DNA of 64,000 nucleotides from Elusimicrobiota bacterium. Its GTDB lineage: Bacteria > Elusimicrobiota > Elusimicrobia > UBA1565 > UBA9628. The position numbers and the translations under genes are program-made. Of the stretch, positions 43,039 to 49,597 are shown one piece after another. The stretch covers positions 1-64,000 of the forward strand of contig JACPFR010000051.1 of assembly GCA_016182905.1 (NCBI GenBank), written 5' to 3'. The notes below the pieces were generated by a model that made no database searches, had not been told where the DNA came from, and saw only the letters and a list, made by a program, of their open reading frames with translations. Numbering within the stretch: position 1 is the first letter of the stretch; each line of letters starts with the position of its first letter.

Positions 43039-43992
43039 GTGAGCGCCAAGCCCTACCTGTCGGCCCTGATCCCGGTCTACAATGAAGAGGAGAACCTGCC
43101 CGCGTTGGGGGAGGAGGTCTCAGCCGCGCTCAACGCCCTGGGCAAGCCCTACGAGGTCATCCTCGTCGACGACGGCTCCAAGGACCGGTCCTACGACGAG
43201 CTTCTCAAGCTCGTCGAGAAATACCCCGATTTCAAGGCCGTCCGCCTCGGCCGCAACGCCGGCCAGACCGCCGCGATGCTCGCCGGCATCCAGCACGCCT
43301 CGGGCGAGTTGATCGTCTGCCTCGACGCCGACATGCAGAACGACGCGCGCGACGTGCCGAAGCTCATCGCCAAGCTCAACGAGGGTTACGACTGCGTCTC
43401 CGGCTGGCGCAAGGACCGACAGGACCGCTTCCTCGACCGGAAGCTGCCGTCGATCATCGCGAACAACTTCATCTCCTACGTGACCGGCGTGCACCTGCAC
43501 GACTACGGCTGCACGCTCAAGCTCTACCGGGCCCAGTACCTCAAGCCGCTGCGCCTGTACGGCGAGATGCACCGCTTCGTGCCCGCCTTGGCCGGCTTCC
43601 TCGGCGCGCGCGTGGCCGAGGTCCCGGTCAACCACCGCGCCCGCACGCGCGGCGTCTCTAAGTACGGCATCTCGCGCACCTTCAAGGTCCTGCTCGACCT
43701 CATGACGGTCAAGTTCATGGACTCCTACCTCGGCAAGCCGATCTACCTGTTCGGCGGCGGGGGAGTGCTGATGGGCCTGCTCGGCGTGGCCTTCGGCCTC
43801 GACACCCTGTACAAGAAGTTCTACCTGGGCATCTTCGTCAAGGACCAGCCCCTGTTCCAGGTCGCGATCTTCTGCCTGCTCATCGGCTTCCAGATGGTGC
43901 TCATCGGCCTCCTGGCCGAGATCCTCGTGCGCATCTACTACGACCTCAAGGACATGAGGCCGTACTTCGTCCGCGAGACCGCGGGCTTCTGA
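43039..43992 (+). CDS. GT2-family glycosyltransferase (dolichol-phosphate-mannose/ArnC type)
   Basis: 317 aa from GTG. The GT-A fold has LIPVYNEEENLP, LVDDGSKD and the metal-binding DADMQ. RKDRQDRFLDRKLPS and the NHRARTRGVSKY loop are typical of polyprenyl-phosphate glycosyltransferases. Two membrane helices end the protein (FGGGGVLMGLLGVAFGLD, AIFCLLIGFQMVLIGLLA). It attaches a sugar to a polyprenyl-phosphate carrier at the inner membrane; the sugar is unknown. Confidence 0.92.
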   Translation: MSAKPYLSALIPVYNEEENLPALGEEVSAALNALGKPYEVILVDDGSKDRSYDELLKLVEKYPDFKAVRLGRNAGQTAAMLAGIQHASGELIVCLDADMQNDARDVPKLIAKLNEGYDCVSGWRKDRQDRFLDRKLPSIIANNFISYVTGVHLHDYGCTLKLYRAQYLKPLRLYGEMHRFVPALAGFLGARVAEVPVNHRARTRGVSKYGISRTFKVLLDLMTVKFMDSYLGKPIYLFGGGGVLMGLLGVAFGLDTLYKKFYLGIFVKDQPLFQVAIFCLLIGFQMVLIGLLAEILVRIYYDLKDMRPYFVRETAGF

Positions 43993-44021
43993 ACGCCCCG
44001 CCGCCGCCAGGACTCTCCCGA

Positions 44022-44050
44022 TTGACCGACTAACGGATTGTTAGTAGCCT
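44022..44050 (+). promoter_or_regulatory. promoter-operator of the first winged-helix regulator
   Basis: TTGACC (44022-44027), 17-bp spacer, TAGCCT (44045-44050), then 7 nt to the ATG. The spacer contains the inverted repeat ACTAAC-GGATT-GTTAGT (44029-44045), a likely autorepressor site. Confidence 0.7.
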
Positions 44051-44057
44051 CAAGGAC

Positions 44058-44384
44058 ATGATCCGGGAACTGCTGGCCCACAGCGACTATGTCCGGGTCC
44101 TGAGCGCGCTCGAACGCCGTCCGATGCGATTCGGCGCGCTGCAGAAGGAACTCGAGCTGCATCCGCCGCAGATCGCGCGAGCCCTCAGGTTCTTGACGAA
44201 GTCCAAGATGGTCGAGCTTACGGCCGCCGACACCGCCACGGGGATATACGTCCCCATCTATGTCCTCACGGACCGCGGCGAAGCGATGACCGAGGTTCTC
44301 ATGGCCTTCATCATAGCCCTCAATCGCCGCCGGTCTCGCCTAGGAGACGAGTACTTGTCCGACATCCGCGCCTGGCGGCACTGA
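44058..44384 (+). CDS. winged-helix transcriptional regulator (paralog 1)
   Basis: 108 aa. LLAHSDYVRVLSALERRPMR is followed by FGALQKELELHPPQIARALR, a helix-turn-helix, and then a wing (MVELTAADTATGIYVPIYVL), as in HxlR/ArsR-like regulators. It is paralogous to the 47506 protein (HSDYVRVLSALERRPMRFG against HKDYLRILQAIRHKPMRFG). It precedes the 991-aa exported protein. The promoter palindrome between the -35 and -10 suggests autorepression. No metal or ligand site was recognised. Confidence 0.8.
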   Translation: MIRELLAHSDYVRVLSALERRPMRFGALQKELELHPPQIARALRFLTKSKMVELTAADTATGIYVPIYVLTDRGEAMTEVLMAFIIALNRRRSRLGDEYLSDIRAWRH

Positions 44385-44459
44385 AGGGCCGAACGGCCCG
44401 GCCTGCGTAGGCTGAATGCCTCAGGCGCAAGGCCCGATTACCCCATAGAATAAGGGTTC

Positions 44460-47435
44460 ATGCGCTCCTGGTCCCTTCTCGCCGCGCTCCTCGTCGCCGC
44501 CCAGACGGCGGACGCCGCCCTCGTCGTGCGGCCCGGCCCCGCCGCCCTCGGCGCCTCGGCCGTCGGCGCCTCCGCGGCCTCCTACGCGATCCAGGTGCCC
44601 CAGTGGACGGCCGCGTTCGACGCCTTCCTCGCGGCTCCGGCCCCGAACGCCGACGCGGTCAGGGCCGTCTCGCGCCTTCTCGAGACCGCCGATCCCCGGG
44701 ACCCGCGGCTCGCGCCTCTCGCCCAAGCCCTGCAGGCCGCCGTCGCCCCGATCCTCGCCCGCCCCGTCCACGCCAAGTCGACCCGGCAGGACCTCGAGGC
44801 CGCCGACCTCAAGTTCGAGGTGCTCAACTATCCCGCAGTCCGCGCGTTGCTCAGCGAGGAGCAGCAGAGCAAGGTCGGCGCCGCGTCGTGGGCCATCAGC
44901 CGGAACATCTGGACCAAGAGCAGCGACCGCTGGGTCGCGCGCAAGCGAAGCCTCGACAAGACCATCGCGGCGATCGCCAAGGAGCTCGGCGCCGAGCGCC
45001 CGGCCTTCGCGGACGAGCCCGCGCCCGTCGCCGGCCCCGGGCCCGACCTCGCCGTCGAGGTCCTGACGGGGGATATCCGAGAGGCCCGGGCCGACGCCGT
45101 CCTCACCACGGTCCAGCGCAAGAAGCTCTGCAACGGCGGCGTCAACGCCGCGATCAAGGCCGCCGACGGCTGCTTCGCCGCCCGGCTCGCGAAAGCCCCC
45201 AGGCTCGAGGACGGTAAGTCCCTGCTCGCGCGCGGCGACGGGAAAGGCCCGATCGAGAACGTCCTGTTCGTCGCCGACAAGTACGAGAAGCCGCTGTCCG
45301 ACATCGTCTACGAAGGCCTGCGCGCCGCCGACGCGAACGGCCTGAAGTCGCTCGCCGTGCCCGCCCTGCGCGCCGGCTCCGTGTTCGGCGCCGTCGAGCG
45401 CACCTACCTGGAGGTGGCCGCCGAGATCCGCCGCGGCGTCGAGCGCTTCCTCGCCGGGGCGCGGACCTCGCTCGAGAAGATCTCCTTCGTCGTGCACAAG
45501 GACGAGAAGCTCGCGACCCAGCTGCAGAACGCCTTCGCGGAACGGACCGAACGGGAGCGCTCGCTGCGGACCGACCTGCGCGAGGCCAAGCTGTCGGGGA
45601 AGGGCTTCGTCCTGACGCCCCGGGAGACGGCGGTCGCGGACCGACGCTCGCCGATCTACGGGAGCCTGCTCGAGCCGTGGAGCCTCAAGCACCTTCTCGT
45701 CCCGCACAAGCCGGTCAAGATCGGGGAGATCGAGGACCGCGCCGCGTTCTCCAAGCCCGTGACCTCGGTGCTGAACATGCCGGTGAAGATGCCGGGCTCC
45801 GAGATCAAGGTTCCCGAGGAGCTGGCCCAGTTCCGGGAGTTTTTACGGAAGATCATCGACCACGAGAAGGCGGTCAACCCCGACTTCGACGAGTTCTACA
45901 TGTACCTGACCGTGGACCAGCACGCGGTGAAGGCGGGGACCACGCATCGACGGCCCGGGGTGCACATCGACGGCGTGCAGGGCGTCCGGTATAAGGTGAA
46001 GCTTCCTCCGGAGCATCTGTACTCGGCGAGCGACCGCCTGGGGACCGTGTTCTATGACCAGCCCTTCGACCTGACCGCCCTCGACCCGGCCAAGCAGCAC
46101 GTCCACGCCGAGCTCGAGCGCCAGGCGAAGGAGGCGAACGCGCGCGCGACGCCCGATTTCGACATCGCCTTCTGGGACTCCTACTCGGTGCACCGCGCCG
46201 ACGTCGCGAAAGCGGACTTCATGCGCACCTTCATCCGCGTCGAGTTCAGCAAGAAGCAGTACGACAGCGAGGGCGACACCCACAACCCTCTGTTCGAGTA
46301 CGACTGGAAGCCGGTGGCGCGGCCCATCCCGGCGGGACTCGACGACAGGCCGCTGCCGCCCGGCGGCTTCACCGAGGGCTACGACCCGGAGTTGAACGGC
46401 CTCGAACCTGGACAGGCGCACACGGTCAAGGATCTTCCGAAGTGGGTGAAGGACAACATCGGGACGACGAACGGCAAACGGTATTTCGTGGTCGAGGGAG
46501 ACTCTCAGGAAGCGCGGCGGACGCTGGAGACGGACGGGTGGACCTTGCGGGAGCCTTACGCGAAAGAGACCGGCTTTCACATGGTTTACGACGCGACGAC
46601 GCCCAACGGCGAAGCCGTGAACCTCATCCTCGGCGTCAACGGCGCGAGCCGGGTCGTCCACCTGCAGAGCTTTTTGAAGCTCGCCGGAGTCCCGGCTGCG
46701 GACGTGCTCACCCGGCGCGGGTTCCGCTCGTGGAAGCCGGAGTACAAGGCGGCCTTCGAGGCGCTGGGGCACGTGCCCGACCTCGTCGTGTACGGCCTGA
46801 CCAGGCCGGCGGTGCGGTCTCTGATCGAGGAGACGCCGGAGATGGCCGCGTTCTGGAAGGACTTCAACGCCAAGAAGACCGAGCCGGCGCCCGAGAACGA
46901 CATCTCGCGAAGGCCGATGAAGGTCATCGAGCTCGAGGACGGGCGCAAGGTCTGGTTCTTCATGCCCCTGTTCGGCGAGTTGGCGGGGGACCTGATGGAG
47001 GCCGTGCTCGAGCACGGCGCCCGGAACGTCGCGGTCATGAGCGCGGCCGGCTCGCTCGACCCGGAGGCGAACCTCGGCGACTGGTTCGAGCCGAAGGCCG
47101 GCTCGCACCTGACCATGCCGACCTCCAACACGCAGACTTTGGCCTGGGTCGCGGAGATGACCGCGCGCGGCGTGCGCACCGTGGACATGGAGCACGCCCA
47201 CATCGTCGATGCCTTCGCGGCCCACCCCGGCGCGGCGCTCACGATCGATTACCTGGTGTCCGACGTGATGACCGGCCCCCGGCGCACCGACCTCACCGAG
47301 ACGCGCATCGGGAAGATCGCGGGCCTCGCCGAGAAGGCGGCGGCGATCGTCGCCCGCGCGCTCGGCCTTCCGCCCCGCGCCCTGCGCGCGCGCTCCGCCG
47401 CGAACGTCTTTTTCCCGCCCATAGGAGGGAACTAA
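44460..47435 (+). CDS. exported Macro + Fe/2OG-oxygenase-like + phosphorylase-like protein
   Basis: 991 aa. The signal peptide SWSLLAALLVAAQTADA comes first. Residues about 195-355 are Macro-domain-like (VEVLTGDIREARADAVLTT, GGVNAAIKAADG, SLAVPALRAGSVFGA), a fold that binds ADP-ribose. Residues about 380-625 have the double-stranded beta-helix oxygenase pattern: HxD (His502-Asp504) in GVHIDGVQG, distal His578 in SVHRAD, then Arg595, ending THNPLFEYDW. Residues about 800-960 resemble nucleoside phosphorylase (GARNVAVMSAAGSLDPEANL, GVRTVDMEHAHIVDAF with Asp909-Glu911). The domain calls are by motif and uncertain, but their combination in an exported protein is unusual. TAGAAT lies 8 nt before the ATG. 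Confidence 0.78.
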   Translation: MRSWSLLAALLVAAQTADAALVVRPGPAALGASAVGASAASYAIQVPQWTAAFDAFLAAPAPNADAVRAVSRLLETADPRDPRLAPLAQALQAAVAPILARPVHAKSTRQDLEAADLKFEVLNYPAVRALLSEEQQSKVGAASWAISRNIWTKSSDRWVARKRSLDKTIAAIAKELGAERPAFADEPAPVAGPGPDLAVEVLTGDIREARADAVLTTVQRKKLCNGGVNAAIKAADGCFAARLAKAPRLEDGKSLLARGDGKGPIENVLFVADKYEKPLSDIVYEGLRAADANGLKSLAVPALRAGSVFGAVERTYLEVAAEIRRGVERFLAGARTSLEKISFVVHKDEKLATQLQNAFAERTERERSLRTDLREAKLSGKGFVLTPRETAVADRRSPIYGSLLEPWSLKHLLVPHKPVKIGEIEDRAAFSKPVTSVLNMPVKMPGSEIKVPEELAQFREFLRKIIDHEKAVNPDFDEFYMYLTVDQHAVKAGTTHRRPGVHIDGVQGVRYKVKLPPEHLYSASDRLGTVFYDQPFDLTALDPAKQHVHAELERQAKEANARATPDFDIAFWDSYSVHRADVAKADFMRTFIRVEFSKKQYDSEGDTHNPLFEYDWKPVARPIPAGLDDRPLPPGGFTEGYDPELNGLEPGQAHTVKDLPKWVKDNIGTTNGKRYFVVEGDSQEARRTLETDGWTLREPYAKETGFHMVYDATTPNGEAVNLILGVNGASRVVHLQSFLKLAGVPAADVLTRRGFRSWKPEYKAAFEALGHVPDLVVYGLTRPAVRSLIEETPEMAAFWKDFNAKKTEPAPENDISRRPMKVIELEDGRKVWFFMPLFGELAGDLMEAVLEHGARNVAVMSAAGSLDPEANLGDWFEPKAGSHLTMPTSNTQTLAWVAEMTARGVRTVDMEHAHIVDAFAAHPGAALTIDYLVSDVMTGPRRTDLTETRIGKIAGLAEKAAAIVARALGLPPRALRARSAANVFFPPIGGN

Positions 47436-47470
47436 ATGGAGGCCTCATTCGTATGATAGGTGGGAGGCCA

Positions 47471-47499
47471 TTGACATACTTACATTATGTAAGCATACT
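47471..47499 (+). promoter_or_regulatory. promoter-operator of the second winged-helix regulator
   Basis: TTGACA (47471-47476), 17-bp spacer, CATACT (47494-47499), then 6 nt to the ATG. The spacer holds CTTACAT-T-ATGTAAG (47479-47493), extending to 10-bp arms with one mismatch. Confidence 0.75.
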
Positions 47500-47505
47500 A
47501 TCGGC

Positions 47506-47832
47506 ATGATCATGGAATTGATGGCGCACAAGGACTATCTCCGGATCTTGCAGGCGATCCGGCACAAACCCATGCGGTTCGGGGAGTTGCAGAGAAGCCT
47601 CGCCCTTAATCCCGCGCAGGTGGACCGCGCCGTCAAATTCCTGCGCAAAGGGCTGTGGATCGTTCCCCGCGTCGCGGCCTCAGCCAAAGGGCGCATGCTC
47701 GTCGAATACGAACTGGGAAAGCGGGGAAAGGCATTCCTGGAAACGCTCAGGGACTTCAGCGCTAGCGCGGTCCGTCATAAGGCCGAACTCGGCGCGGCAG
47801 CCGTAGCCGAGCTTCAGGACTGCTGCCGCTGA
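47506..47832 (+). CDS. winged-helix transcriptional regulator (paralog 2)
   Basis: 108 aa. MAHKDYLRILQAIRHKPMR and FGELQRSLALNPAQVDRAVK form the helix-turn-helix, followed by a wing (IVPRVAASAKGRMLVEYELG). It is a clear paralog of the 44058 regulator. It is the first gene of a pair with the next gene (4-nt gap). The palindrome inside the promoter spacer suggests autorepression. Confidence 0.82.
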   Translation: MIMELMAHKDYLRILQAIRHKPMRFGELQRSLALNPAQVDRAVKFLRKGLWIVPRVAASAKGRMLVEYELGKRGKAFLETLRDFSASAVRHKAELGAAAVAELQDCCR

Positions 47833-47836
47833 GCCT

Positions 47837-48328
47837 ATGGCCGTCGTCTACCTTCTCGGGCCGGGCATGTGGGACGGAGGGAAGCGGACGTCTGACGATC
47901 AGAGCCCGCTGCTGGTCCGCCGCTCTATCGCGAAGACTCTCGGGGCGAACGGTCATCAAGTCGTTTTGATGGAGGATGATCCTGACCGCATCGGTGAAGA
48001 TCTCATCGAGAAGTTCGACCGGCTCTTGCGCCATAAAGTGACGGACGTCGTCCTCTACTGGCCGCCCTTGGCCAAGATGCAGACGACCTACGATGAGTTG
48101 ATCCTGCTTTGCGACCGGCGAGATTTCCTGAAGAAAGAGAAGATTCGGCTTTGGGCGCTGCACCACTCGTCCGTCGCGACGATCACGAAAGACGAGTTCA
48201 AAGTATTGGAAACTGGAAGCCGAAGCCGCTACCTGACCGCCGTCGCGCGCCTGGGCCTTCGCCCCTTGGAGTGGACTTCCGACGACGACCTGGCAGAGCA
48301 AACCGGCCTTCTCGCGGCGGAGCTGTAA
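47837..48328 (+). CDS. hypothetical Rossmann-like protein paired with winged-helix regulator
   Basis: 163 aa, no signal peptide. An N-terminal strand with a GP turn (VVYLLGPGMWDGG), a helix (RRSIAKTLGANGHQVVLMED), a strand ending in a Pro pair (TDVVLYWPPLAKMQT) and TTYDELILLCDRRDFL give an alternating alpha/beta pattern. It loosely recalls the nucleoside deoxyribosyltransferase/TIR fold, with Asp-Glu in the YDEL position. Not firmly assigned; function unknown. Translated with the preceding regulator. Confidence 0.6.
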   Translation: MAVVYLLGPGMWDGGKRTSDDQSPLLVRRSIAKTLGANGHQVVLMEDDPDRIGEDLIEKFDRLLRHKVTDVVLYWPPLAKMQTTYDELILLCDRRDFLKKEKIRLWALHHSSVATITKDEFKVLETGSRSRYLTAVARLGLRPLEWTSDDDLAEQTGLLAAEL

Positions 48329-48373
48329 CCCGTTCTATCGCGCCCGTCCCAAATCGGCTATACTCGGCGCGTT

Positions 48374-49021
48374 ATGGGTAAATTTTTCGCGCTCGTGATC
48401 GCCGTCGTCACCGTCGTCTGGCTCGCGCCGATGTGCGCGGACCTGCCGTCCGACCTGTCCACGTTGCCGGTCCCCGCTGCTCCGGCCGCGCCCGTCGCGT
48501 CCACCGTGACGGCGCCCGCGCCCGTCGCCGCGCCCGTCGCCGCGCCCGTCGCCGAACCCGCTCCGGCCCCCGCTCGCGCCGCGGTCCCGCTGTCGCCGGT
48601 GACGATCGCGACCTACCGCTCGCGCTCGATGTTCCCCGTGGAGGGGGAGAGCTACGTCGTCTCGGTGCTGCGCAAGAACCACGCCGAGGTCCGCGCCGAG
48701 GGCGTGCGGCTGACCGTGGCCGCCCGAGTGAAGGGCGAGGTCATGGAGCGCGCCGAGAGCGGCCCCGGACAAAGGCTCGCGCCCGGCGCCGACTCCTACT
48801 TCGGCCTGCCCGTCACAACCGAGGTCTTCGATTACCTCCTCGACGGCCCCGAGGACAAGCGCAACTGGCTCGAGTGGGTGCTGACCTACCGCCTGGAGAG
48901 CGACGCCCCCGGGACGACGCGCTGCTTCGGCCTGCGGGCGCTGCCGCGCCGGCGCGAGCCCTCGGGGCTCACCTGGATCCCGCTCGGGCAGACGCTCAAG
49001 TGCCCGCCCCCTCTCCCCTGA
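48374..49021 (+). CDS. hypothetical protein with signal/anchor and Pro-Ala linker
   Basis: 215 aa. The N-terminal hydrophobic segment (FFALVIAVVTVVWLAPM) is an uncleaved anchor or signal peptide. A Pro/Ala/Val linker of about 40 residues with repeats of APVAAPVA follows, then a globular beta-rich domain (residues about 75-215, PVTIATYRSRSMFPVEG, TYRLESDAPGTTRC). No family recognised. TATACT (48359-48364) lies 9 nt before the ATG. Confidence 0.7.
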   Translation: MGKFFALVIAVVTVVWLAPMCADLPSDLSTLPVPAAPAAPVASTVTAPAPVAAPVAAPVAEPAPAPARAAVPLSPVTIATYRSRSMFPVEGESYVVSVLRKNHAEVRAEGVRLTVAARVKGEVMERAESGPGQRLAPGADSYFGLPVTTEVFDYLLDGPEDKRNWLEWVLTYRLESDAPGTTRCFGLRALPRRREPSGLTWIPLGQTLKCPPPLP

Positions 49022-49033
49022 TCTATTCTCGGT

Positions 49034-49065
49034 GATATTCGCTCTTCCCGGGACGAGCGAATATC
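49034..49065. repeat. 11-bp inverted repeat
   Basis: GATATTCGCTC and GAGCGAATATC are exact inverses around a 10-nt loop, with no T run. It lies between the anchored protein and the DUF177 gene and could be a hairpin or an operator. Confidence 0.5.
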
Positions 49066-49096
49066 TATCCCCGTAGATAAGTGATAACATGGGCTC

Positions 49097-49597
49097 ATGA
49101 GCTCGGATTTCAAGTTCCCGCTGACGGACGTGAAGGAGAACGGCCGCCTGGCCGTGAACGCCAAGACGCCGCCGGAGACCTTCCCCGACGCCCTGAGCGA
49201 AGGGGCCCTCGTGGGCCCGGTCAAGCTCGAAGGCGAGATCCTCGCCGTCGACGACGAGGCCGCGTTCACCGGCACCGCGAAGGGGAAATGGAAGTTCGAG
49301 TGCACGCGCTGCCTCAAGCCCGTCGAGCAGGCCTGGAGCACGCCGATCGAGGTGATGGTGCCCATCGACGGCGGCCCGATGGACCTCACCGACGAGGTGC
49401 GCCAGTCCATCGCCCTCATCCAGCCGATGAAGATCCTGTGCAAGCCCGACTGCAAGGGGCTGTGCGAGGTCTGCAGGAAGGACCGCAACGTGGCGGAATG
49501 CGGCCACCCCGAGGGCGGCGCCGGGGACGGCGTCCCGGGAGGGGGATTCTCCAATACGCGAAAGCCCCGATTGACCCCTCGCCCTCATAAAGGCTAA
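49097..49597 (+). CDS. yceD: YceD/DUF177 family protein
   Basis: 166 aa. The cysteine pairs CTRC (in FECTRCLKPVEQ) and CKPDCKGLCEVC are the family's zinc-binding pattern. The family is nearly always next to rpmF, as here, and is linked to 23S rRNA accumulation or ribosome assembly in plants and bacteria. TAACAT (49085-49090) lies 6 nt before the ATG, so the message is probably leaderless. Confidence 0.9.
   Translation: MSSDFKFPLTDVKENGRLAVNAKTPPETFPDALSEGALVGPVKLEGEILAVDDEAAFTGTAKGKWKFECTRCLKPVEQAWSTPIEVMVPIDGGPMDLTDEVRQSIALIQPMKILCKPDCKGLCEVCRKDRNVAECGHPEGGAGDGVPGGGFSNTRKPRLTPRPHKG

Follow-up and report, generated by a model that had tools for sequence, protein, structure and literature searches.

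The question raised by this locus is what a single, probably exported polypeptide would do with an ADP-ribose-type, an oxygenase-type and a nucleoside-type domain set one behind the other. Its gene lies in the window (the whole 64,000-nucleotide stretch of Elusimicrobiota DNA analysed here), and the first-pass annotation of that sequence had proposed that one Sec-exported protein combines a macro-like, a Fe/2OG-oxygenase-like and a nucleoside-phosphorylase-like domain, all related to NAD or nucleoside chemistry. The three-domain polypeptide is present as described; the gene, its parts and two flanking genes are as follows.

44460..47435, + strand: whole gene of a modular, predicted exported protein, 991 aa, ATG start (open reading frame, orthologs, pN/pS)
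44460..44516, + strand: predicted signal peptide MRSWSLLAALLVAAQTADA, residues 1-19, Sec/SPase-I type (sequence; equivalent leaders in inspected family members)
44577..44990, + strand: helical N-terminal module, residues ~40-177 (reciprocal HMMs; AlphaFold helices)
45045..45545, + strand: macro-like domain, residues ~196-362 (profile search, AlphaFold/Foldseek)
45582..46355, + strand: Fe/2OG-oxygenase-like domain, residues ~375-632, PHROG 1843-like (homologs, alignment, AlphaFold model, tree)
45963..45974, + strand: H502-I-D504-G505, predicted metal-ligand motif (invariance in homologs)
46191..46193, + strand: distal His578, predicted third metal ligand (invariance in homologs)
46224..46226, + strand: Arg589, expected 2-oxoglutarate carboxylate ligand (invariance in homologs)
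46386..46769, + strand: alpha/beta domain, residues ~643-770 (comparison with relatives, AlphaFold model)
46773..47354, + strand: phosphorylase-superfamily (PNP/UDP)-like domain, residues ~772-965 (PF01048 match, motifs, relatives)
44058..44384, + strand: flanking winged-HTH (HxlR/ArsR-like) gene, 108 aa, accessory cargo (sequence, locus comparison)
47506..47832, + strand: second winged-HTH gene, paralogous to the first and 39% identical to it (sequence, locus comparison)

Orthologs of the 991-residue protein occur in G014 (63% identity), G001 (71%; this copy is cut by the assembly) and G011 (65%), and remoter relatives have only parts of it in common. The GTDB relatives of the host MAG are groundwater 'Elusimicrobia bacterium' records. 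Over the whole gene, comparison with G014 gives a pN/pS of 0.50 and comparison with G001 one of 0.49, and the ratio lies below 1 in every segment: ~0.8 in the N-terminal module, which evolves fastest, 0.56-0.59 in the macro-like, 0.24-0.28 in the oxygenase-like and 0.49 in the PNP-like part. The gene is therefore real and under purifying selection, with the oxygenase part the most constrained, and its presence, orthologs and constraint, together with the positions of the motifs and the macro region, make the order of the three domains more than a product of chance. Frameshifts in the PNP part break up the ortholog of G011 (L019:8516-11460; complete genome CP096137), the mark either of a decaying copy or of sequencing errors. 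The fold families themselves are already known; what appears new is the architecture, the family defined by the N-terminal module and the assignment of PHROG 1843 to the Fe/2OG type, none of which was found reported in the literature or family libraries searched.

Export was part of the original proposal, and the leader argues for it: the predicted cleavage, MRSWSLLAALLVAAQTADA|A, falls after residue 19, and signal-peptide-like n- and h-regions stand at the corresponding start of all 20 relatives inspected (proteins with the N-terminal module or with the same modules), many of them ending AxA-like. The protein thus probably leaves the cytoplasm by the Sec route. Behind the leader, the N-terminal module is modeled by AlphaFold as confident helices (pLDDT ~90). 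HMMs built from macro-bearing proteins only, with the signal peptide removed, also match proteins whose payloads are unrelated (E=3e-13 to 1e-6), and HMMs built from the unrelated-payload proteins match the macro-bearing set in turn (E=2.5e-18 to 5e-13); chance as an explanation of these matches is ruled out by reversed and shuffled decoys, which gave none. Among 341 genomes searched across the phylum, 22 have the module at E<=0.01, some matches being marginal, and the source genome has one family member. None of the known trafficking domains of Pfam is related to the module.

What the module carries differs from protein to protein. Common to ~20 exported, otherwise different Elusimicrobiota proteins, it precedes, by Pfam, FGE-like (E=1.6e-48), ABC1 kinase plus Rce1 protease (6e-29 and 3e-7) and transglutaminase-like (2e-6) payloads and a Hanks Ser/Thr kinase (E=5e-33; the module match is weak there); WD40-like, nucleotidyltransferase-like and YrbL-kinase-like payloads complete the range, the last again with a weak module match. 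Two of these genes deserve mention in their own right: L070:5204-9001 (G036:C10) places an ATP-dependent enzyme, the ABC1 kinase with its Rce1 protease, behind a signal peptide, and L190:3438-6266 (G019:C40) does the same with the Hanks-type kinase. The module can thus serve as the marker of one family of secreted enzymes, in a phylum about which little is known, and as a handle for searching out their functions.

The gene occupies a syntenic spot at which the cargo varies. The conserved order is amine oxidase-like, IDH, GT2, cargo, u215, YceD-like, plsX and fabG, and the cargo between GT2 and u215 is the gene of the 991-residue protein in G000, G014 and G011. In G003 and G009, GT2 adjoins u215 with nothing between; in G006 it adjoins YceD; in G016 the spot holds a single HTH gene, and in G017 other genes. 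The gene is thus accessory, the spot being empty or otherwise filled in close relatives. More broadly, the cargo of the GT2-to-YceD/plsX/fabG interval (window 43989-49097; L214, L215, L218, L219) varies across the genus. Such hotspot-like presence and absence, rapid evolution, a constant N-terminal part followed by variable C-terminal modules, and an oxygenase family held in common with phages are also what one would look for in a contact-dependent or secreted toxin-like weapon, or an anti-phage conflict protein, with the N-module for trafficking and the C-terminal modules as warheads. That such a weapon is at hand is nevertheless improbable: no toxin domain, repeat region, pre-toxin processing domain or immunity gene is recognised, the neighbours being HTH and housekeeping genes; PADLOC matches neither the window protein nor two relatives; and payloads such as the FGE-like and WD40 domains are not toxin-like.

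The macro fold proposed for the first of the three domains is borne out by the fold search. The family profile matches macroH2A1.1 at E=7e-6 and NCBIfam macro models match at 4e-6, while in Foldseek YmdB, TTHA0132 and the macro domains of macroH2A and PARP14 match at E ~1e-8 to 1e-6, and many of the single-domain matches reach a TM-score, taken over the target, of 0.7-0.8. The GDI motif (204-206) and the glycine loop VPALRAGSVFGAVE (300-313) are kept, and Q219, C224, G227 and N229 are invariant across the macro-like domains of the family. In alignment, Gln219 and Asn229 occupy the positions of the Asn and Asp of YmdB, which we take to be the catalytic residues of the ADP-ribosyl/O-acetyl-ADP-ribose hydrolase. 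Hydrolysis is not supported because of this replacement; judged by its sequence, the pocket probably binds an ADP-ribose-like ligand rather than carrying out the classic reaction.

The C-terminal domain was annotated as nucleoside-phosphorylase-like with a VDME motif; the motif and a (weak) superfamily relationship hold up, phosphorolysis does not. PF01048 scores E=0.0034 on the window protein (17.3 bits, under the 25.1-bit Pfam cut-off) and E=6.4e-7 on the homologous module of L026 in G042 (29.4 bits, over it), which aligns with uridine phosphorylase. VDME (908-911) and VSD (933-935), corresponding to the ribose-binding V(D/E)ME and catalytic SD motifs, are kept; in the uridine phosphorylase alignment the Arg before GTTG, which presumably binds phosphate, is replaced, and the GxG loop is absent. 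With the ribose-binding Glu and catalytic Asp retained and the phosphate site lost, the domain is therefore better read as a nucleosidase-like enzyme or a nucleoside sensor than as a phosphorylase. A segment of ~23 residues present in L020 and L026 is deleted from the window copy, and the AlphaFold model is weak over this part (pLDDT 34-87). In the window gene and the relatives nearest to it, the PNP-like module comes together with the alpha/beta domain at 643-770; the PNP-like module has no plasmid or phage match. L026:10479-14570 is itself unusual, joining a signal peptide and a radical SAM CxxxCxxC domain to the same PNP-like module in what is apparently an exported radical SAM protein.

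The oxygenase-like domain is where constraint and invariance coincide. His502, Asp504 and His578, named in the first-pass annotation, are correctly placed, and Arg589, at H+11 relative to the distal His578, joins them: the invariant set of 11 diverse aligned rows includes H502, D504, G505, H578, R589 and N609, the HxD/H/R set is invariant in plasmid and phage homologs at ~24-35% identity, and His, Asp, His and Arg are kept in all phage/IMG-VR rows placed in the alignment. A single-sequence AlphaFold model reached a pLDDT of 39. In the model from 51 rows the region is mostly above pLDDT 90; a helix precedes the first core strand, and H502, H578 and R589 each have a strand of their own, the strands following one another as expected for a double-stranded beta-helix (DSBH). 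Pfam and NCBIfam have no match in the region, the PDB searched by sequence with the oxygenase profile gives none, and the 50 Foldseek matches listed against the PDB are macro-type, with none to the oxygenase domain. The best BFVD matches are apparently uncharacterised phage proteins, the first of them an Orpheovirus protein whose 405-column alignment may extend past the domain. These residues and their order suggest that the domain is probably catalytic and of the Fe(II)/2-oxoglutarate type.

The kin of this domain are found on mobile elements. By tblastn they include plasmid genes of Candidatus Megaera polyxenophila (7e-28) and Rhizobium leguminosarum (9e-23) and a gene of Salicola phage SCTP-2 (5e-29); PHROG 1843, listed as of 'unknown function' and with no published function in the literature searched, matches at E=1e-24. 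An IMG/VR scan seeded with two phage members yields 67 loci; viral-contig scans that used A1 and A2, two Elusimicrobiota profiles, and two single relatives yield no relatives. In a tree, all seven copies from Elusimicrobiota fall into one clade (100/99) that adjoins plasmid and jumbo-phage genes on long branches. Within the phylum the domain occurs in 7 genomes, in an exported modular protein wherever the gene start is available, and there is no standalone copy among 341 genomes. The active-site residues of a family spread through phages and plasmids can now be named, as predictions. Some individual genes merit a separate remark. Erythrobacter phage XM05 gene 57 (L083:4007-4672), annotated 'DNA endonuclease V', probably wrongly, is a PHROG 1843-like HxD...H...R protein; the plasmid of the ciliate endosymbiont Megaera encodes a 413-aa homolog with a unique N-terminal extension (L079:5548-6789); and a second exported 2OG-oxygenase fusion, L195:1-2838 (G036:C48), reads in one frame from a signal peptide and Ala-rich linker through a PF10014-like 2OG oxygenase to a TerC-like membrane domain (by eye). 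The phage neighbourhoods of PHROG 1843 homologs contain no consistent functional partner and NAD-salvage-type neighbours are rare; at L113, L114, L117 and L122 the phage gene adjoins NMN-adenylyltransferase-like and nicotinamide phosphoribosyltransferase-like genes, as judged by eye from sequence.

The notion that three such domains in series would make up a periplasmic or cell-surface housekeeping enzyme, scavenging extracellular NAD, ADP-ribose or nucleosides, comes close to the first-pass annotation and has some points in its favor: the macro and PNP-like parts are nucleotide-type folds, and some phage homologs of the oxygenase adjoin NAD-salvage-like genes, as just noted. Against it, that adjacency is rare, being seen at 4 of 67 loci, of which three are near-identical; the domains do not co-travel, macro and PNP each being found in proteins that lack the other; the macro hydrolase and phosphate-site residues are replaced; and the gene is sporadic and missing from most relatives, unlike a scavenging pathway. 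A scavenging role is accordingly given little likelihood. The broader proposal, that the domains serve one NAD or nucleoside pathway, finds no support either, because relatives recombine them variously with nucleotidyltransferase, transglutaminase and radical SAM domains and because the N-module also carries kinases.

A further alternative makes the hydrophobic N-terminus a membrane anchor or vestigial signal, the protein cytoplasmic-side or inactive, and the mosaics the product of neutral fusions in a lineage that tends to have large proteins. Payloads that need cytoplasmic cofactors (ATP, 2OG and, in the radical SAM relative L026, SAM), altered catalytic residues in the macro and PNP parts and the frameshifted G011 copy would all fit. 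It is hard to reconcile with leader-like n- and h-regions in every relative inspected, many with AxA-type ends, with an oxygenase site perfectly kept and constrained, or with pN/pS below 1 in all segments, and is judged unlikely.

The reading preferred here, which we hold to be about evenly poised, is that of a Sec-exported, modular, effector-like secreted protein with interchangeable payload domains. It is favored because leaders are found family-wide, the first domain has a macro fold, the HxD/H/R set is invariant and constrained, one N-module is shared by different payloads, the locus is accessory and the N-module is the fastest-evolving part. The signal peptide and the lineage-specific helical module would carry exchangeable payloads out of the cytoplasm: first a macro-fold pocket, probably for an ADP-ribose-like ligand, that has lost the usual hydrolase residues; second a probably catalytic Fe(II)/2-oxoglutarate oxygenase which, we infer, was captured once from a phage- or plasmid-borne family; and third a phosphorylase-superfamily domain serving as nucleosidase-like enzyme or nucleoside sensor. 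Once released from the cell, the protein would act inside another cell, or inside host or prey cytoplasm, where 2-oxoglutarate and nucleotides are supplied. The free combination of domains and the sibling payloads needing ATP, SAM or 2OG would favor such a compartment over periplasmic NAD scavenging. Several considerations count against an effector-like protein: little O2, Fe(II) or 2-oxoglutarate would be available outside a cell; the source genome has a single family member; the PNP model is weak and its ~23-residue segment deleted; and the oxygenase has no PDB match among those listed. That there is an entire Elusimicrobiota effector family, in which enzymes of cytosolic type (protein kinases, ABC1 kinase, nucleotidyltransferase, macro, phage-captured Fe/2OG oxygenase, PNP-like) are brought into other cells by the signal peptide and helical module, the oxygenase here modifying a target in the recipient, is a more ambitious proposal and is considered less likely than not. 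Either would be a rare instance in which chemistry that depends on cofactors and normally belongs to the cytosol takes place outside the cytoplasm, and raises the question of the target compartment.

Comparison with known systems can be made domain by domain. The macro-like domain resembles those of E. coli YmdB, macroH2A1.1, AF1521, MacroD2 and PARP14 in fold (Foldseek E ~1e-7, TM-score over the target 0.7-0.8), GDI and Gly loop; it differs from them in the change of Asn/Asp to Gln219/Asn229, in the extra invariant Cys224 and in being fused and, by prediction, exported. With PF01048 (uridine and purine nucleoside phosphorylases, MTA/SAH nucleosidase) the C-terminal domain shares the core strand-helix order, the SAAG/GTAG loop, VDME and VSD, whereas the phosphate-binding Arg/Gly loop is not kept, a segment is deleted and an alpha/beta domain is fused to it. 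The oxygenase domain has the HxD...H...R order of the Fe(II)/2OG families PF10014 and PF13640, and short hhalign matches, which are not significant, fall on active-site positions; in contrast to members of those families it is not in Pfam and has no significant profile match (hhalign probability <1%, similarly low for the macro, PNP-like and N-module controls). PHROG 1843 proteins are its homologs across the domain; to these belong sequences such as Salicola phage SCTP-2 gp386 (E=1e-24 to 5e-29), with the same invariant HxDG/H/R, but the phage proteins are standalone, of ~220-240 aa, and lack a signal peptide and macro or PNP parts. As a whole, the protein departs from polymorphic toxins and secreted modular effectors in having no recognised toxin, processing or immunity parts and an N-module unrelated to known Pfam trafficking domains; what it has in common with them is a constant N-terminal export region followed by exchangeable C-terminal enzyme modules.
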